NCBI GenBank assembly: GCA_029907345.1
Contig: JARYMB010000005.1
Location: 69,485 to 118,971, forward strand
Source of the DNA: Methanolinea sp.
GTDB lineage: Archaea; Halobacteriota; Methanomicrobia; Methanomicrobiales; Methanospirillaceae
DNA length: 49,487 nucleotides
Direction of reading: 5' to 3'
Numbering within the stretch: the first letter of the stretch is position 1; each line of letters opens with the position of its first letter. Below are positions 24,497-31,133 of the stretch, one piece after another. The translations under genes were made by a program, and so were the position numbers. Below the pieces are notes generated by a model. The model worked only from the letters and a program-made list of their open reading frames with translations. It searched no databases and was not told where the DNA came from.

Positions 24497-25228
24497 TCAC
24501 CCCGGCACGATCGCAGGCCCGTACACGATCGCGATGTAATACAACCCGGTGCCGATGAAGACAGCGGCAACAGCCCACTTTACCCATTTCTCCATGTCCT
24601 GCACCCTCTGCATCACGTTCGAGACGCGGCTGACGCTGCCTGCGAGGACGAGGGAGATGACGATGACCGGCAGTGCCGTCGCAATCGCAAAGACAGCAGG
24701 AACGAAAAGGGCGTCCCCGGTCTTCAACGCGATCGGGACCAGCATCCCGAAGAAGAGGACTGCGGCAAACGGGCAGAGGGCAAGCGCAAAGATGACCCCG
24801 AGGAAGAACGCTCCCAGGTATCCTTTCTCGCCGAGGTAGAGCTCGATCGCCTGGAGCCGGCCCTGACCACCGGAAAGGGGGATCGGGACGATTTCCAGCA
24901 TCAGGACCCCCATGAGAACCAGGAACGGCCCGATCAGTCTCTCCCCGTATTCCTGGAGGAAGAACGAGATCGCCTGGATGTTTATGCCTGCATGGACGAT
25001 CAGGGCCGTGAGGGCGATGTAGGATGCCATCCTCCCCAGGCTGTAGAGCGTCCCGACGAGGACCGTGTGCCTGCTGTCCCCGATCTTCTTCGAGATGAAG
25101 GCAATGGCGGTGATGTTCGTGGCAAGCGGGCAGGGAGAAAACGTCATCAGGAGACCGATGAAGAACGCCGCGACGAGGGGGATGCCGCTCGTCCCGAAGG
25201 CCTCCATGGCACCCATCACGTCTGTCAC
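24497..25228 (-). CDS. arsG: ArsG-family CcdA/DsbD-like membrane thiol transporter
   Basis: The 243-residue protein has about six membrane helices. The two CcdA-type Cys-Pro motifs are FSPCPLATNI (helix 1) and LALCPFAAVLFFG (helix 4). These cysteines carry electrons across the membrane in the DsbD/CcdA superfamily. The sequence matches the group named ArsG, which is linked to organoarsenical resistance. It is the last gene of the arsenic operon; its GTG start overlaps the ArsF stop as GTGA. It probably reduces the CxxC pair of the ArsF-like lipoprotein outside the membrane (inference). Confidence 0.82.
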   Translation of the reverse strand: MTDVMGAMEAFGTSGIPLVAAFFIGLLMTFSPCPLATNITAIAFISKKIGDSRHTVLVGTLYSLGRMASYIALTALIVHAGINIQAISFFLQEYGERLIGPFLVLMGVLMLEIVPIPLSGGQGRLQAIELYLGEKGYLGAFFLGVIFALALCPFAAVLFFGMLVPIALKTGDALFVPAVFAIATALPVIVISLVLAGSVSRVSNVMQRVQDMEKWVKWAVAAVFIGTGLYYIAIVYGPAIVPG

Positions 25229-25689
25229 GAGAGGTCCCCCGCCAGCCTCTTTTCAATCACTCCCTTCAGGTACTCCATGTATTCTTCCTTGTTCCCGATC
25301 TTGTACCATACCCGGATGTTCTCCTCCTTTGAGAATTCGCCCCTGTTGGTGACCCCGATCCAGAGCGAGGATCCCGTGGGCCCGTACCTCTCCACGATCG
25401 CCCTGTTTTCCGGGAGATCGACATTGATATGGCCAAAGACCAGTTTCCCGGACGCAAGCTCCGGCCCAAAATACGTCTTTACCGTCTCCTCTGCGTATTC
25501 TCCAAGAACGACGCAGGAATAACACTGGCGTGTCGCGTGGAAGTGGTAGACCTCGACCTTGTCAACGGAAGAAAGAGACCTGTTCCCGGCACTCTCCCCC
25601 GTGTTCCCCTGCGTCAGGCACCCTGCCGCGGGCAGGTATGCAAGAACGAGGAGGAGAACCTGTATAATAACAATGCTTCTCTTATTCAT
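25225..25689 (-). CDS. arsF: ArsF-like thioredoxin-fold lipoprotein
   Basis: The 154-residue lipoprotein has a lipobox PAAGC at about Cys24, then a thioredoxin-like domain with YHFHATRQCYSCVVLGEYAE (CxxC), LVFGHINVDLPENRAIVERY and the WIGV strand. It resembles the family named nitrophenyl compound nitroreductase subunit ArsF, found beside arsG. Its start overlaps the 3' end of the DGC gene by 8 bases, and its stop overlaps the arsG start. It is placed outside the membrane, where it can exchange thiols with ArsG. Confidence 0.8.
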   Translation of the reverse strand: MNKRSIVIIQVLLLVLAYLPAAGCLTQGNTGESAGNRSLSSVDKVEVYHFHATRQCYSCVVLGEYAEETVKTYFGPELASGKLVFGHINVDLPENRAIVERYGPTGSSLWIGVTNRGEFSKEENIRVWYKIGNKEEYMEYLKGVIEKRLAGDLS

Positions 25690-26089
25690 GGTCCTGTCCC
25701 GGGGGCACCCGGTGGGATATGTGCCCGTCGTTTTTCACAATTCCCACGATCACGTGGGAAAGCCTTTGGATCTCGTCAAACCGCGGCTCTTCCATCCCCC
25801 GCCTGGCGATCCCTTCCGCGGTTGCAACGATGTGCCCGTCCATTGCCTTTCCGGCCAGGAGAACCCTCTTTTTGGCACAGCACTGGTCGCATCCGTCGAC
25901 CACGACCAGCCGCTCGTCACCGTCCAGTTCCTCCCCGAGGGAACGCGCAAGCCCGGTGAGGACGAGGTGACGGGAGAGGAGGGCCGGATGCATGGTCCGG
26001 ATGAAACGCCCGGCGAGGGTCGTGAGCTGTCCCGTGTGGGAGATCCCCGAGCATGTCAGGAGGAGGACGGGGCGTTCCTCGTCTGTCAT
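25682..26089 (-). CDS. DGC-domain putative zinc-binding protein
   Basis: The 135-residue cytosolic protein shows the DGC domain pattern: LLTCSGISHTGQLTTLAG near the N-terminus, then VVVDGCDQCCAKKRV with the name-giving DGC and a CxxCC cluster. Three cysteines plus C14 could hold a metal or a thiol adduct. DGC proteins are often found in arsenic operons, but their role is unproven. The gene overlaps arsC as ATGA and arsF by 8 bases, so it is made in step with them. Confidence 0.8.
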   Translation of the reverse strand: MTDEERPVLLLTCSGISHTGQLTTLAGRFIRTMHPALLSRHLVLTGLARSLGEELDGDERLVVVDGCDQCCAKKRVLLAGKAMDGHIVATAEGIARRGMEEPRFDEIQRLSHVIVGIVKNDGHISHRVPPGQDHE

Positions 26090-26517
26090 CCCGTCCCACC
26101 CCTCCCGAAGTACCCGTCAATCCATCCCGTGATCGCATCCCGGACCTCCCGGAAAACCTCGATGGGGCTTTCCCCGTCCCGGCCGACCGGATCGGGGAAC
26201 GGGACGTGGATGGTCTCTTTTGCCCAGGGAAAGAAGGGACAGGCACCCCGGGCAGAATCGCACACCGTCACCACGAGGTCCATCTCCCTTCCGGCAAATT
26301 CCATGAGAGTTTTGGAGCGCTGTCCCGATATATCGATGCCGATCTCCTCCATGACCGCAACGGCAGAGGGATGGACCAGGGTTGCCGTTGTCCCGGCAGA
26401 GAAGGCGTCAAAACGGTCGCCGTACCGGGCCCGCAGGTACCCTTCCGCCATCTGGGAGCGTGCCGAGTTGTGCGTGCAGATGAAGAGGACGCTCCTCTTT
26501 TTCTCCCGGGCACTCAT
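26086..26517 (-). CDS. arsC: Arsenate reductase, low-molecular-weight phosphatase type
   Basis: The 143-residue protein reduces arsenate to arsenite. The N-terminal P-loop FICTHNSARSQMAEG has the CX5R pattern with the nucleophile Cys15. VTVCDSARGACPFFP supplies the further redox cysteines (at about 87 and 93) of the thioredoxin-coupled ArsC class, and HVPFPDPVG holds the general-acid Asp. It sits in the arsenic operon after a 60-base gap that contains a strong hairpin. Confidence 0.93.
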   Translation of the reverse strand: MSAREKKRSVLFICTHNSARSQMAEGYLRARYGDRFDAFSAGTTATLVHPSAVAVMEEIGIDISGQRSKTLMEFAGREMDLVVTVCDSARGACPFFPWAKETIHVPFPDPVGRDGESPIEVFREVRDAITGWIDGYFGRGGTG

Positions 26518-26551
26518 GGCGTCCCCTCAGAGCCCCCTCTCCGGGCATTTC

Positions 26552-26570
26552 CCCCGGCAGACTGCCGGGG
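26552..26570. other. Perfect inverted repeat inside the arsenic operon
   Basis: CCCCGGCAG, A, CTGCCGGGG lies in the only real gap of the operon (26518-26577), between DUF2703 and arsC. It can form an 8-bp stem with a 3-nt loop in the transcript. There is no T-run, so it is more likely a processing or stability element than a terminator. Confidence 0.5.
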
Positions 26571-26577
26571 TGTCCTT

Positions 26578-27009
26578 TCAGGACGGGCCGTTGCAGGCAC
26601 AACCGCAGTCACGCGGTGTCTTCTTGCTCTCCACCACACCGATGATCACCTGTTTCAGCAGGTCCGGGGTAATCGCCTCGTAGCGACTCCCTGCATACTC
26701 GATTGCACGGCAATATGCCTCGTCCTGTCCCGTGATGCAGGCGCAGGAACAGCAGGGGGTCGAGACCACTTCCGCACCCGCAAGGTAGTCCTCGAGGGGT
26801 CTTCCGTCGAGGAGAACCTGGTTCGATGCCCCGATCTCCGCATCGGGCAGGACTGTCTCCCGGAACTCGGGCACAACACCCCTTTCCCTGAAATACGGTC
26901 CGAGGTCCTTCAAAACATCGCGTATCGCGCCGCCGGTCAGGCTGCAGCGCTCGCACGTTCCGGTCACATCGTTCCCGATGTGCTTCCATTCAATGACGAT
27001 TCTTTTCAT
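26578..27009 (-). CDS. DUF2703 cysteine-rich protein
   Basis: The 143-residue cytosolic protein matches the DUF2703 pattern: WKHIGNDVTGTCERCSLTG near the N-terminus, ETVLPDAEIGASNQVLLDGR, then VVSTPCCSCACITG and a C-terminal tail DCGCACNGPS. At least nine cysteines suggest metal or arsenite binding (inference). DUF2703 genes recur in arsenic clusters. ATG 27009 is chosen because the conserved domain starts there; it overlaps the 3' end of arsR by 20 bases. Confidence 0.82.
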   Translation of the reverse strand: MKRIVIEWKHIGNDVTGTCERCSLTGGAIRDVLKDLGPYFRERGVVPEFRETVLPDAEIGASNQVLLDGRPLEDYLAGAEVVSTPCCSCACITGQDEAYCRAIEYAGSRYEAITPDLLKQVIIGVVESKKTPRDCGCACNGPS

Positions 27010-27385
27010 GGGAAACCGTTTCTTCTTCGCATTCGCACTGCCCGTCCCCGCCCGGCTGCCCGGAAAGGGACGGGTCTTTCTCAAGGAGCCTGGCAAGGTC
27101 CCTCGTAAAGGATCGTACCCCGGGGGGTCCCGGCTCAGACCTCCTGTAGTAGATCCAGAGCCCCTCCCGCCGGGCCGTGACCAGGCCGGCGTTCCGCAGG
27201 ACCCCAAGGTGGCGGGAGACCTTGGTCTGCGTGGTCCCGAGGGCGGCCTGGATATGGCAGACGCAGAGCTCCCCCCCGCCGAGGAGAAGGTAGATCCGCA
27301 GCCTCGTCTCGTCGGAGAGCGCCTTGAAGATGGTGGTATACCGGGACAGGGATGATGCCCGCTGCCTGCCTGTCCTCCCTGTCAT
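26990..27385 (-). CDS. arsR: ArsR-family arsenic-responsive repressor
   Basis: The 131-residue winged-helix protein has the metal-sensing motif ELCVCHIQAAL in the recognition-helix region and the HTH GTTQTKVSRHLGVLRNAGLV. A Cys-containing tail (GQCECEEE) may add a third ligand. Arsenite binding should release it from DNA. ATG 27385 is set by a GAGGT ribosome-binding site and the usual family length. It follows arsP in the operon and probably binds the palindrome at 28543-28565. Confidence 0.92.
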   Translation of the reverse strand: MTGRTGRQRASSLSRYTTIFKALSDETRLRIYLLLGGGELCVCHIQAALGTTQTKVSRHLGVLRNAGLVTARREGLWIYYRRSEPGPPGVRSFTRDLARLLEKDPSLSGQPGGDGQCECEEETVSHEKNRH

Positions 27386-27428
27386 GTTTAATACCTCGTT
27401 GGTAAGCCCGGATAAACCCAGTGATTCG

Positions 27429-28520
27429 TCACCCGAGAAGCCCTGCCGTCTGCAGGACCTGCAGGACGATCCCCGCGCTGATGGCGACGCCGAGGACGAC
27501 TCCCACGAACGCTGCAACGAGCCTCCGCTCGAAGATGGATGCAAGGAGGGTCACCTCGGGAATGCTCGCCCCTGCTCCCCCGATGATGAGCGCCATGACA
27601 GCGCCAAGACCCATCCCCTTCGTAAGCAGGACCGCACTGATGGGAATGATCGTCTCGGCCCGGATGTACATCGGGATGCCGATGATTGCAGCGATGGGGA
27701 TGGCGAGGGTGTTTTCCGGACCCGCAAGGGAAACGACCAGGTCTTCGGGCACGAACCCGTAGATGAATGCCCCGATTGCTGCCCCGAGGATGAGGTAGGG
27801 GAGTACCTGGCGGAACAGGCGGAGCGAAAAGCCCAGGGCGGACTTCATCCGGCGGACGTGGTGGGAATCGGGCGAACCGTTCCCGCCGGCATGTGCAGGT
27901 GAGGGGGGAACTGCAGGGACAGGCGGGGAACCGCCCGAACACCCGCACCCCGGTGCCTGCGCGATCGTGCCCGCGTCTCCCGGACAGCAGCCCGTACTCA
28001 CCCCTGCCGGACGAACCGGGTTGCCGGCACAGCACCCCGATCCCGCACCAGAGGGAATGGCGTTTTTCCCCCGCCCGGCCGGCTTGACGAACCGGATGAA
28101 GCCCTTCTCTTCGAGCACGAGCCCCGACAACACTGCGATGCAGAAGGTGATTGCACAGTATATAACGGTGGGTACTGGTCCGAAGAATGCCAGCACCATG
28201 AAAACAATGACCGGGTTTAAGAGCGGTGATGCAAGGAGGAATGCCATGCAGGCGCCAAACGGAACCCGGGAGTTGATCAGCCCGACGAGCACGGGGATCG
28301 TCGAGCAGGAGCAAAACGGTGTCAGGGCACCGAAGAATGCACCGAGAGCCGTCCCCGTGACCCGGTTCCCGGACGAGAGAGCCCGACGGATCTTCTCTTT
28401 GGGGACGTATTCCTGGATGAGCCCTACCAGGAAGCTGATGGCCACGAAGAGGAGGACAAGTTCGAGCGTGATGACCAGGAAAAACTGCCCGGCCGTGAAG
28501 AGGTCGTTAATTGCTGTCAT
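27429..28520 (-). CDS. arsP: ArsP-type permease (DUF318/YraQ family)
   Basis: This 363-residue inner-membrane protein has about eight to ten helices. The first half carries the family motif GALTPFCSCSTIPVLVG; the second half has IPMYIRAETIIPISAVLL and IIGGAGASIPE. Family members export trivalent organoarsenicals. The central cytoplasmic loop (about 150-215) holds three cysteine clusters, SGCCAGN, TGCCPGD and PGCGCSGG, which could collect the metalloid. It is the first gene of the arsenic operon, with a TATA (TATATTTG on the minus strand) about 30 bases from ATG, so its mRNA is near-leaderless. Confidence 0.88.
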   Translation of the reverse strand: MTAINDLFTAGQFFLVITLELVLLFVAISFLVGLIQEYVPKEKIRRALSSGNRVTGTALGAFFGALTPFCSCSTIPVLVGLINSRVPFGACMAFLLASPLLNPVIVFMVLAFFGPVPTVIYCAITFCIAVLSGLVLEEKGFIRFVKPAGRGKNAIPSGAGSGCCAGNPVRPAGVSTGCCPGDAGTIAQAPGCGCSGGSPPVPAVPPSPAHAGGNGSPDSHHVRRMKSALGFSLRLFRQVLPYLILGAAIGAFIYGFVPEDLVVSLAGPENTLAIPIAAIIGIPMYIRAETIIPISAVLLTKGMGLGAVMALIIGGAGASIPEVTLLASIFERRLVAAFVGVVLGVAISAGIVLQVLQTAGLLG

Positions 28521-28542
28521 CTGTATATATCTATATTCGGTT

Positions 28543-28565
28543 ATTCAAATATAATGATTTTGAAT
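28543..28565. promoter_or_regulatory. Probable ArsR operator in the divergent ars/sulfur-relay promoter
   Basis: ATTCAAA (28543-28549) and TTTGAAT (28559-28565) form a perfect 7-bp inverted repeat with a 9-bp spacer, the style of an ArsR/SmtB site. It overlaps the arsP TATA box (28547-28553, minus strand), so binding would block TBP. The rightward promoter (AAAATATTAAAG at 28616-28627) lies 50 bp away and could be affected as well. Confidence 0.6.
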
Positions 28566-28653
28566 CTCCCTGCCGATCTTTGCATTTTGTGTCACATAAG
28601 TGCATAAATGGTTCCAAAATATTAAAGTGAAAAATGTCGAAATGTAATGACCC

Positions 28654-29187
28654 ATGGTACCCTGCAGCATTCATGACACAGTCCGCCGCCATGCATTCCT
28701 CCTCGTCCGGCACCCCGCGTTTCTCGGTGCGGTGATCGGGATTCTCGCTGCACTGTCCCAGTCGCTTCTCATCAGTGCCGGGGGCCCCGAGGCGTACGGG
28801 TTCTGCGTCGCATGCCACACGCGGGATCTCGTGAACGGGGTTACAAATATTCTTGCCGGGTCATCCCTTGCCCTTGCACCCATCTCGAAGAATGCAGTTT
28901 TACCCGTGATGAGCGTTGTCGGTGTGCTCATCGGCGCATACGTATCCGCACGCGTGAACAGGGAGCACGCCGTCAAAAAGGGATCGTTCCGGGACTACCT
29001 GCTCTATTTCCTCGGGGGTTTCCTCGTGCTCATCCTCGCGATGGTCTTCGGGGGGTGCCCGTACCGGGCGGCGCTCCGGACAGGGTACGGGGACTTCATC
29101 GCCCTGCTCTTCATCGTGGCGATGGCCCTCGGCGTCGTTGCGGGCACGGTCTTCATGCTGAAGCGGGCCGAAAGGGAGGATGCCTGA
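28654..29187 (+). CDS. YeeE/YedE-family transporter, first half
   Basis: The 177-residue membrane protein has about four to five helices. The conserved cysteine motifs are YGFCVACHTRDLVNG and FGGCPYRAALRTGYGD, the latter a hallmark of the YeeE/YedE family that takes up thiosulfate or related sulfur species through cysteine relays. Canonical members are about twice as long; here the next gene supplies the second half. A TATA-like AAAATATTAAAG sits about 33 bases before ATG. Its stop overlaps the next start as TGATG. Confidence 0.85.
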   Translation: MVPCSIHDTVRRHAFLLVRHPAFLGAVIGILAALSQSLLISAGGPEAYGFCVACHTRDLVNGVTNILAGSSLALAPISKNAVLPVMSVVGVLIGAYVSARVNREHAVKKGSFRDYLLYFLGGFLVLILAMVFGGCPYRAALRTGYGDFIALLFIVAMALGVVAGTVFMLKRAEREDA

Positions 29188-29711
29188 TGGCGACCGGTGT
29201 CCTGCCCGTGGAGATCGCGGTCCTTGCGGTTCCTGCAGTGACCCTCCTCCTCGGCGTCCTGATCGGGTACCTTGCCCAGCGCTCTGGTTTCTGCTCGATC
29301 GGCGGGTTCCGCGACTATTTCCTCTTCCGCCACACGCGAATCCTCTCGGGGTACCTGGCCCTGATCGTCTTTTCGTTCCTCGGGTACCTCCTCTTCTGGA
29401 CCCTGACACCTGCGGCAATGGAACACTTCTTCTGGGCGCTCACGAGCGGTCCCTTCACCCCGGTTCCGGGAGCTCCCGCAGGGCTTGGCCCGGCAGCTTC
29501 CATCCTCCTTGCCGTGATCCCCGGTTTCCTCGTCGGGTTTATCTGCGTCCTCCTCGGGGGATGCCCCATCCGGCAGGCCGTGATGACGTCCGAGGGAAAC
29601 ATCAGGGCGGCGTTCTTCCTGCTCGGGATGGGTGTTGCATCCCCGGTCTTCGCAGCGTTCGTCTCAGGCTGGATCGTTTTCTTGGCAAAATCCCTCGGAC
29701 TGGGGGCCTGA
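29187..29711 (+). CDS. YeeE/YedE-family transporter, second half
   Basis: The 174-residue membrane protein has about five helices, with RSGFCSIGGFRDYFLFRHT and LLGGCPIRQAVMTSEGN, the counterparts of the cysteine motifs in the preceding gene. The two halves presumably form one channel for thiosulfate or another reduced sulfur (possibly selenium) compound. The ATG overlaps the preceding stop by one base (TGATG), a tight translational coupling; the next gene starts five bases after its own stop. Confidence 0.85.
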   Translation: MATGVLPVEIAVLAVPAVTLLLGVLIGYLAQRSGFCSIGGFRDYFLFRHTRILSGYLALIVFSFLGYLLFWTLTPAAMEHFFWALTSGPFTPVPGAPAGLGPAASILLAVIPGFLVGFICVLLGGCPIRQAVMTSEGNIRAAFFLLGMGVASPVFAAFVSGWIVFLAKSLGLGA

Positions 29712-29716
29712 TCCCC

Positions 29717-30895
29717 GTGTTCTCCTCGACGTTCCTCTTCTGCGACCCCATCGGCGGGGAACGCATGAGGTGGCTCGCCGGGGTGATCGGCGCGGCAGGA
29801 GGGCAGGGGTTCCCCGGAAACACGGGGACTGTAAAGGTATTTCTCACGGGAGATGCCCTCTTCAGCCTCCTGGACGCACGGACCCGGCCTGCATGGGTCG
29901 CCCTCTCCCGGTTGCCGTCCGTCCTGGTCATTGCAGACGGCGACGAGCTCCGCCTTCAGGGACTCGCCGACCCTGTTGCATCCGGGATCCCGGGTCTTCG
30001 TATCACGGGGTCGGCCAACCGGGTGTCTTTCTGGGGAGAACTCGTCTCTTCCCTCGAAAAGGACTGGCCCGGGACGAGGAACGCTGCATTCCTCCTCTGC
30101 ACTTCTCCCTACATGAGCAGGGTCCCGGTCTACATGCTCCGGTTCCTCACCTGCGTACTCGGGGCTGGGCTGCACCCGGAGCTCTACTGTTACCTCGACG
30201 GGGTCCACGCTCTCCACGATGGTCAGCGCCCCTCGGAGTTCGAAAACATCGGGAAAGGCGTTTCCGCCCTTTCCGGGAACACCGTCCGGTCATGCCGCGA
30301 CCCGTGGTTTGCTGCCTGTTCGCGGTGTGCGACGGCGAGGGGATACTACCAGATGAACCCCGGGACGGGTTTCTGCGAACCGGCGTCCTGCATCCAGGAG
30401 ATCGCGATCAGGCCGCTGAAAGAGATACTCGCCCGTTTTTCCGGCCTCCACCCCGTCGCATCGCACATGGGGGGCTGGACTGTCCCTGCCGGAGCCGGAA
30501 CAGGAGGTGTCCCCGCCCTGACCGTGTTCATCACGCACCCCCCCTACTGTTCCGAGTGGACGTTCGGCGGGCTCTCCCTGGCCATTGCCGCGGCCATGGA
30601 CGGAATTCCGACCAGCGTCATCTTCATCGAGGATGGCGTGTACGCCCTCCAGGGGACCCACGAAGTGCCCGGGAACGACCGGATCTTCAATGTTCAGGAG
30701 ATGATCGCCGTCACGACCGATATCGGGAGTCTCTCCTACTACGTCCATGCCCCTTCCGTCGCGGACAGGGGCGTCAGTACCACGGAGAATCTGTCGCTGG
30801 TCAGGGAGGCCTCGGACGGGGACCTGTCCCGCCTCCTGTTCCCGTCAGAAAACGACCCGGCTCCCGCCCCTGCCATGCGCCTGCTGTTCTTTTAA
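29717..30895 (+). CDS. Triple DsrE-domain fusion, TusBCD-like sulfur carrier
   Basis: This 392-residue cytosolic protein is built of three DsrE-like alpha/beta domains. Domain 1 (about 1-118) has FLFCDPIGGERMRWLAG and KVFLTGDALFSLLD. Domain 2 (about 120-250) has AAFLLCTSPYMSRVPVYMLR, LYCYLDGVHALHDGQ and ACSRCATARGYY (C201, C204), the place of the TusD/DsrE active cysteine. Domain 3 (about 262-392) has FITHPPYCSEWTFGGLSLAI and VIFIEDGVYALQGTH. GTG 29717 is chosen because it provides the first strand of domain 1; ATG 29765 would cut it off. Only domain 2 keeps the transfer cysteine, as in the TusBCD complex where only TusD is active. Confidence 0.8.
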   Translation: MFSSTFLFCDPIGGERMRWLAGVIGAAGGQGFPGNTGTVKVFLTGDALFSLLDARTRPAWVALSRLPSVLVIADGDELRLQGLADPVASGIPGLRITGSANRVSFWGELVSSLEKDWPGTRNAAFLLCTSPYMSRVPVYMLRFLTCVLGAGLHPELYCYLDGVHALHDGQRPSEFENIGKGVSALSGNTVRSCRDPWFAACSRCATARGYYQMNPGTGFCEPASCIQEIAIRPLKEILARFSGLHPVASHMGGWTVPAGAGTGGVPALTVFITHPPYCSEWTFGGLSLAIAAAMDGIPTSVIFIEDGVYALQGTHEVPGNDRIFNVQEMIAVTTDIGSLSYYVHAPSVADRGVSTTENLSLVREASDGDLSRLLFPSENDPAPAPAMRLLFF

Positions 30896-30911
30896 AAGAG
30901 GATGTGATACC

Positions 30912-31133
30912 GTGGAGCATACGAACGCAAAGGACTTTTCCGAACTGACCTGCACCAACCTGATGATAAAGCTGAAAATCCTGCTGAACAAGCTTTCCCC
31001 GGGCGACACCGTGGCTTTTTACGCAACGAGGGAGCAGGTGGACAACACGTGTTCCCCTTTTTCCGGCCAGGGATACCAGGTAACATGGACAGAAGTCGCC
31101 GCGAACCGGTACCTGGTCCGCATCGGGAAGTGA
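30912..31133 (+). CDS. TusA-like sulfur carrier with altered CPxP motif
   Basis: The 73-residue protein has the TusA/SirA fold pattern: a short strand, then ELTCTNLMIKLKILLNKLSPGD, then VAFYATREQ and a final VAANRYLVRI strand. The family CPxP motif is here CTNL; the sulfur-carrying Cys is kept but the prolines are lost. Another Cys lies in NTCSPF. The start is GTG 30912, preceded by GAGGATGTGAT. It is the last gene of the sulfur-relay operon and the likely partner of the triple DsrE protein. Confidence 0.75.
   Translation: MEHTNAKDFSELTCTNLMIKLKILLNKLSPGDTVAFYATREQVDNTCSPFSGQGYQVTWTEVAANRYLVRIGK

Follow-up and report, generated by a model that had tools for sequence, protein, structure and literature searches.

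Locus and gene content

The stretch of DNA analyzed here, which we call the window, is 49,487 nucleotides of contig JARYMB010000005.1 in a Methanolinea sp. assembly (GCA_029907345.1, our genome G000, 1.86 Mb in 61 contigs). Its point of interest is a pair of operons that diverge from a 133-bp intergenic gap at 28521-28653. A seven-gene arsenic resistance (ars) operon (ArsG, ArsF, DGC, ArsC, DUF2703, ArsR, ArsP) is encoded leftward, and a four-gene sulfur cassette is encoded rightward. An earlier interpretation of the bare letters, the sequence-only reading, had placed seven arsenic genes to the left and four sulfur genes to the right of this region, and family scans and exact starts bear that out; gene content, order, and strands of both operons are confirmed. 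The reading we prefer, at a probability of roughly 55%, is that these are two separately controlled operons in one gap, the right-hand one a sulfur importer with a persulfide relay that is found repeatedly beside arsenic islands, allied with them and not co-regulated. It is supported directly by the gene content, by two distinct conserved operators, by sites at DUF134 loci that match the cassette operator, and by recurrent linkage. The features are as follows.

24497-25228, minus strand: ArsG-family organoarsenical efflux permease (NCBIfam NF040495, 266 bits, cut-off 200)
25225-25689, minus strand: ArsF-family protein (NCBIfam NF040494, 107.5 bits, cut-off 60)
25682-26089, minus strand: DGC-domain protein (Pfam PF08859, 60 bits; arsenic role by neighborhood only)
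26086-26517, minus strand: low-molecular-weight-type arsenate reductase ArsC (Pfam LMWPc above cut-off; arsC_pI258 110 bits, below its cut-off of 174)
26578-27009, minus strand: DUF2703 protein (Pfam PF10865, 88 bits; arsenic role by neighborhood only)
26990-27385, minus strand: ArsR/SmtB repressor with ELCVC motif (NF033788 96 bits, cut-off 55; BigR model 45 bits, cut-off 155)
27429-28520, minus strand: ArsP-type permease (Pfam ArsP_1, 180 bits)
28532-28553, no strand: putative ArsR-type operator dyad TATATTCGGTTATTCAAATATA at arsP (8/10 arsP upstream regions)
28590-28605, no strand: cassette operator TGTCACATAAGTGCAT, consensus TTnCnCATATGnGnAA, putative DUF134-type site (14/16 YE1 promoters; DUF134 loci)
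28614-28624, plus strand: putative B recognition element (BRE)/TATA region of the sulfur operon, CCAAAATATTA (identical in 5 ars-abutting genomes including the window)
28654-29187, plus strand: YE1, YeeE/YedE half with GFCxxCHTRD and GGCPYR (Pfam Sulf_transp, 41 bits)
29187-29711, plus strand: YE2, YeeE/YedE half with GFC and GGCPxRQ (Pfam Sulf_transp, 34 bits)
29717-30895, plus strand: Dsr3, DsrE-fold fusion, TusBCD-like (Pfam DsrE at residues 268-364; predicted model)
30912-31133, plus strand: TusA-like carrier with TCTNLMIKLK motif and a second Cys (DNTC) (below Pfam TusA cut-off; TusA-type fold)

Family scans find in the left operon what identifies an ars operon, namely a CVC-motif ArsR, an arsenate reductase, and arsenical permeases, and the ELCVC/CVC motif is what we take to be an arsenite-type site. 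The operon would provide resistance to arsenic and organoarsenicals. The right-hand operon is tightly spaced, with a 1-base overlap of YE1 and YE2 followed by 5 and 16 bases to Dsr3 and the TusA-like gene. The divergent abutting layout occurs in 4 other genomes as well, with DsrE fusion identities of 68-91%.

Proteins of the sulfur cassette

YE1 and YE2 both exceed the gathering score of Pfam PF04143 (Sulf_transp). The cysteines of each half are conserved in 24/24 aligned copies from relatives, an alignment that excluded the window's own YE1 and YE2, which carry these cysteines as well. Within each model the two proteins cover separate halves, and on seleno_YedE they do so in order. That model is the best NCBIfam match of both halves (71 and 76 bits), which would fit a YedE-type transporter importing selenium instead of sulfur; yet both halves fall below the seleno_YedE (TIGR04112) cut-off of 200, selD is above its cut-off in 0/16 cassette genomes, and, in the portion of the report available, deletion of a YedE gene in Methanococcus maripaludis gave no clear selenium-uptake defect (PMC11097638), so that we regard selenium import as highly improbable.

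Only the C-terminal third of Dsr3 (residues 268-364) reaches the Pfam DsrE cut-off. A sequence search of solved structures with the DsrE-fusion profile gives no useful match, and profile comparison detects no mutual sequence similarity among the three parts of the fusion. The predicted model, with a predicted local distance difference test (pLDDT) score of 80, resembles single DsrE-family subunits, and its top PDB matches are YchN, a Sulfolobus DsrE-like protein, DsrEFH, and TusBCD subunits, all at probability 1.00 with E-values of 0.003-0.04, none at or below 0.001, and with low-probability unrelated chains interspersed. Of the triple DsrE fusion proposed earlier, the predicted model bears out the DsrE-family fold; the threefold character is less certain, Pfam recognizing the third part only and internal similarity not being found.

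The TusA-like protein scores 17.1 bits against a Pfam TusA cut-off of 28.6, and its Cys14 is invariant in the alignment. The predicted model (pLDDT 87) has a TusA fold with the N-terminal cysteine, matching SirA-like, TusA, and YeeE-YeeD chains at TMq 0.75-0.77 (E = 0.001-0.025), with methyltransferase domains matching too at TMq about 0.6. For membership in TusA the modeled fold speaks in favor, and the Pfam score and the missing CPxP motif speak against.

The DsrE fusion is present in 48/199 genomes sampled across the order, and the TusA-like protein in 41/108 genomes of the family, both counts including distant paralogues. Among these, DsrE-fusion paralogues that lack the transporter (L058 9110-12628; similar among L050-L070) are often seen by eye near apparent formylmethanofuran dehydrogenase genes, which suggests a sulfur-relay role for the Mo/W cofactor of that enzyme. 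A second set of cassettes, group B (L047, L049, L052, L059), has an additional TusA with CPYC and has neighbors that look, from their sequence, sulfite-reductase-like, cysteine-desulfurase-like, or HgdB-like; arsenic genes were not found near these cassettes.

Two operators in one gap

The sequence-only reading had both operons share one promoter region containing an ArsR-type palindrome. The gap is shared; it holds two separate conserved operators plus a distinct TATA-like region for the sulfur operon, and a single promoter now appears unlikely. The palindrome is real and above chance. It is a 22-base dyad at -33 (or -25) of the arsP start in 8 of the 10 upstream regions compared (12 arsP loci were tried, 11 gave an upstream region, and the near-identical L031 was omitted), and its expectation-maximization score is 112.4, versus 27.1-38.5 in 6 shuffled sets run with fewer restarts. 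The arsP upstream regions of L102 and L105 are without it. TATATTCGGTTATTCAAATATA belongs to arsP rather than to the cassette, and 4 of the 8 regions with the dyad adjoin no cassette. Its occupant is most likely ArsR, which would sit over the presumed arsP core promoter and be released when arsenite binds its CVC site. Another dyad, TTCAAA-N9-TTTGAA at 28544-28564, overlaps the arsP operator and is intact in the window and L032 and one base off in L031; it was dropped in favor of 28532-28553 because it is missing in L033 and L073.

When 16 YE1 promoters are aligned, 14 share a different palindrome, TTnCnCATATGnGnAA, located at -64 to -71 relative to YE1, with a score of 96.5 versus 22.7-26.1 in 8 shuffled sets (fewer restarts here too). 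L046 has the site at -115, counted from a start call that is probably too late, and the YE1 promoter of L043 has no good site. The operator is kept both with and without ars neighbors, and 15 loci picked for their ars genes (L093-L107) have a single site of at least 14 bits, at L094 9287, beyond the ArsG end. The cassette thus appears, from these alignments, to have its own promoter, operator, and switch, apart from arsP.

No ArsR operator was found at the cassette promoter, the dyad found being the one at arsP and the cassette operator being distinct from it. As a regulator of the cassette, the CVC-type ArsR was rejected, since a search for it drew a blank in two genomes whose cassettes carry the same operator. 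Shared ArsR control of both operons is consequently not supported by the promoter comparisons. This bears on the proposal made from the letters alone, in which the cassette belongs to the arsenic response, is induced through ArsR, and has its persulfide used directly on arsenic by thiolation, binding, or thioarsenate handling. The divergent layout and the recurrence beside arsenic islands are what one would expect of it, and the accessible portion of a Thioalkalivibrio study describes arsenite changes in DsrE/F-like genes and a rhodanese-containing operon (PMC6620896). With separate operators, and with same-operator cassettes in two genomes that lack a match to the CVC-type ArsR of L036, we find that proposal improbable.

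DUF134 as the candidate regulator

A matrix was trained solely on 14 cassette sites and then run on DUF134 loci. DUF134 is found in 19/21 cassette genomes, the two misses being metagenome-assembled genomes 75-76% complete, and 30 of the 36 DUF134 matches in cassette genomes had a locus. The matrix matches 21 of these 30 loci, and because a matrix from cassette promoters is that strong there, DUF134, not ArsR, is the likely regulator, and a DUF134 protein would likely bind at the cassette operator. The matches number 33 in 97 kb of DUF134 loci. Genomic sequence from elsewhere, 671 kb in all, gave 2, and shuffled copies of this first set of 30 loci gave 0. A further 28 DUF134 loci gave matches in 16, with 1 in their shuffled copies, distributed by family as f1 8/11, f2 4/6, f3 1/1, f5 3/3, f4 0/6, and f6 0/1.

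A pattern search of 10 genomes finds 25 matches versus 2 for the reversed pattern, or 24 sites after one palindromic site that was listed twice is counted once. Six of the 24 are at cassettes and 8 at a locus of DUF134 and the methyl-coenzyme M reductase (MCR) component A2. Another 8 accompany genes of the NifX/ORP-like, P-loop ferredoxin, DUF5320, or radical SAM kind, and the remaining 2 are in other places. The DUF134/A2-locus site occurs once in each of 8 same-genus genomes searched. Names of the target genes come from family scans of representatives and from reading of the other open reading frames (ORFs), and for A2 the scan was of a fragment, scoring 180 bits where the full-length cut-off is 517. 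The DUF134 neighbors look like DUF134 targets. As a separate observation, many DUF134 loci (L131-L155, L196-L253) contain TTACTCATATGAGTAA-type palindromes, frequently past the DUF134 gene, giving a candidate DUF134 operator and a candidate small regulon.

A wider proposal, which we hold only tentatively and at less than even odds, is that DUF134 proteins are transcription factors acting on TTACTCATATGAGTAA-type palindromes and governing a methanogen metal-sulfur regulon. Its members would be DUF134-adjacent genes such as those for MCR-activation component A2, NifX/ORP-like protein, and P-loop ferredoxin, together with the split-YeeE/DsrE/TusA-like importer; the importer would have been recruited to arsenic islands in part of the Methanoregulaceae, there restoring or supplying persulfide when arsenic hits thiols or clusters. 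Among the papers listed by a literature search on DUF134/UPF0251, in which subscription journals are poorly covered, none is by title or abstract a regulator study of this site, and none describes DUF134 as having a regulatory role.

Distribution and linkage to arsenic genes

The linkage count covers the close cassettes that are complete (group A), 22 of them spread over 21 genomes. It excludes the G227 relic and the partial cassettes of G230 and of G129, and it takes L073 as G207, L077 as G208, and L033 as G029. The script limit was 12 kb, and flanks are mostly 7-9 kb. Nine of the 22 have arsenic genes within about 10 kb, in three arrangements. A divergent ArsP abuts the cassette in the window, G089, G081, G029, and G207. 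A CVC-type ArsR is encoded 270-600 bases upstream on the same strand in G137, G163, and G053, and beyond it lies a divergent island with an ArsP-like permease, an ArsE-like thioredoxin, and a DGC-type protein. In G121, ArsM and a DGC-like protein are upstream. The counted arsenic genes are on the YE1 (upstream) side in 9/9; L073 additionally has a weak DUF2703-like gene downstream of the cassette. Distant cassettes and paralogues with only the DsrE fusion served as control loci, in some cases with a short flank, and arsenic genes are nearby in 1/24. Ignoring kinship, 9/22 versus 1/24 gives Fisher P = 0.0036, or 0.0025 minus two loci (G146 and one of two cassettes in G167) that are cut at YE1, where linkage cannot be judged. 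The pairing of ars and sulfur genes recurs above chance. Of the arsenic-sulfur link in the sequence-only reading the recurrent neighborhood survives; co-control by ArsR is not supported, the cassette having a different operator, one that it shares with DUF134 loci.

Linkage does not go back to a single inherited event, since five changes of the linked state are required on a FastTree tree built from the fusion protein; label shuffles on that tree need 6.8 changes on average, with five or fewer in 12.6%. In G029, homology to the window spans 26093-31133, from ArsC to the TusA-like gene, and elsewhere consists of just one 62-bp match. By its own terms the sequence-only reading is contradicted by sulfur genes that lack arsenic partners in close relatives, and such ars-free cassettes exist, five in the same genus (G041, G005, G176, G105, and G208). 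Searches of G041 and G176 for ArsG, for ArsP, and for the CVC-type ArsR of L036 came back empty. G227 (L193 3866-4167) retains a cassette relic, in which the TusA-like gene is broken and immediately preceded by a strong cassette operator; an ars island is about 3 kb away. In G105, ArsG is split across two reading frames (L097 8865-9586).

Linkage of this kind might be a genomic accident, two accessory modules gathering in the same permissive islands with the cassette unrelated to arsenic. The cassette's own operator, the 11 of 22 complete cassettes with no ars neighbor, and two cassette genomes that gave no ArsG or ArsP match all fit an accident. It accounts poorly for the excess over paralogous control loci, for three arrangements all on the YE1 side, for an ArsC-TusA block preserved in different surroundings in L033, and for the three genomes in which a CVC-type ArsR immediately precedes the cassette, and we consider it unlikely, if with appreciable weight.

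The reading of two allied operons under separate control has its own difficulties. Those same 11 cassettes have no arsenic gene in the examined flank, which in four of them (G073, G185, G208, and G231) reached only about 2.5-3.3 kb upstream, and the counts are inflated by related genomes. L073 abuts ars genes and is without a recognizable cassette operator. The DUF134 site is absent from 9/30 and 12/28 DUF134 loci, including 6/6 of family f4, and at loci with a readable strand more sites follow the DUF134 gene (24, typically ahead of its neighbor) than precede it (15), a count on which self-control by DUF134 was dropped. In the proteins, the order of YE1 and YE2 is swapped on the Sulf_transp and TsuA models, a YE1 sequence search of solved structures gives no link to a solved transporter, and the TusA-like protein lacks CPxP, having CTNL instead in 16/16 aligned sequences.

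Proposed mechanism and significance

YeeD is essential for thiosulfate uptake via YeeE, as far as the available portion of the report goes (PMC11073785), and the half-size proteins PmpA and PmpB correspond to the two halves of YeeE in what is accessible of another (PMC11582611). The closest model is therefore a split YeeE passing sulfur to a TusA-like carrier. YE1 and YE2 would together make up a single PmpAB/TsuA-like importer that takes in a sulfane-sulfur anion; that this substrate is thiosulfate-like we infer by analogy, and it is the least certain step. The CTNL cysteine of the TusA-like protein would then accept the sulfur and carry it as a persulfide, the part that YeeD plays for YeeE; the TusBCD-like fusion would hand it on, probably to assembly of iron-sulfur or thiometal cofactors. 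The cassette would be switched at its own palindromic operator, most likely by a DUF134 protein, whose other apparent targets are the genes for MCR-activation component A2 and the NifX/ORP-like and P-loop ferredoxin genes. The probable reason for its repeated placement next to arsenic islands is that the thiols and clusters which the cassette would serve are attacked by arsenic.

The analysis separates two claims that the layout merges: neighbors, yes; co-regulated, probably not. It yields an operator that can be tested and, for DUF134, a candidate role. It also offers a sulfur importer and relay of anaerobes with ties both to metal-sulfur genes and to arsenic islands. If the benefit under arsenic is true, persulfide supply would add a new accessory line to arsenic tolerance in methanogens.

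Apart from these operons, the window has a fluoride riboswitch at 1890-1953 (Rfam RF01734, 40.7 bits). The 205-aa ORF downstream of it (2104-2721) begins, read by eye, like a helix-turn-helix protein and not like a fluoride channel.

Comparison with known systems

The left operon carries the same families as ars operons with ArsR, ArsP, ArsC, and ArsF/ArsG. A literature search that included the accessible portions of PMC6205960 and PMC6620896 brought up no ars operon paired with a TusA/DsrE/YeeE operon, only loose precedents, and for SaoD/DsrE organometal systems there was no SaoD among the matches listed. As excerpted, the Thioalkalivibrio study has DsrE/F-like genes changing under arsenite and one of two strains raising a rhodanese-containing operon that adjoins an arx/ars cluster (PMC6620896), which is a loose precedent.

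Dsr3 shares the DsrE-family fold with TusBCD/DsrEFH, matching single subunits at TMt about 0.7 (probability 1.00, E = 0.003-0.02), and differs in being one polypeptide with a recognizable sequence in the third part only. Like PmpA/PmpB, YE1 and YE2 are two half-size genes matching different halves of YeeE/YedE models; the window halves have about 175 residues, versus about 130 for PmpA and PmpB in the portion of PMC11582611 available, and they have more conserved cysteines and are joined to DsrE/TusA-like genes. With YeeE-YeeD (TsuA-TsuB) the cassette has in common a YeeE/YedE membrane protein and a TusA-fold partner in one operon, with conserved cysteines, and the TusA-like model matches YeeE-YeeD chains; in the window, however, the transporter is split into two genes, a DsrE-fold fusion is added, and CTNL replaces CPxP.

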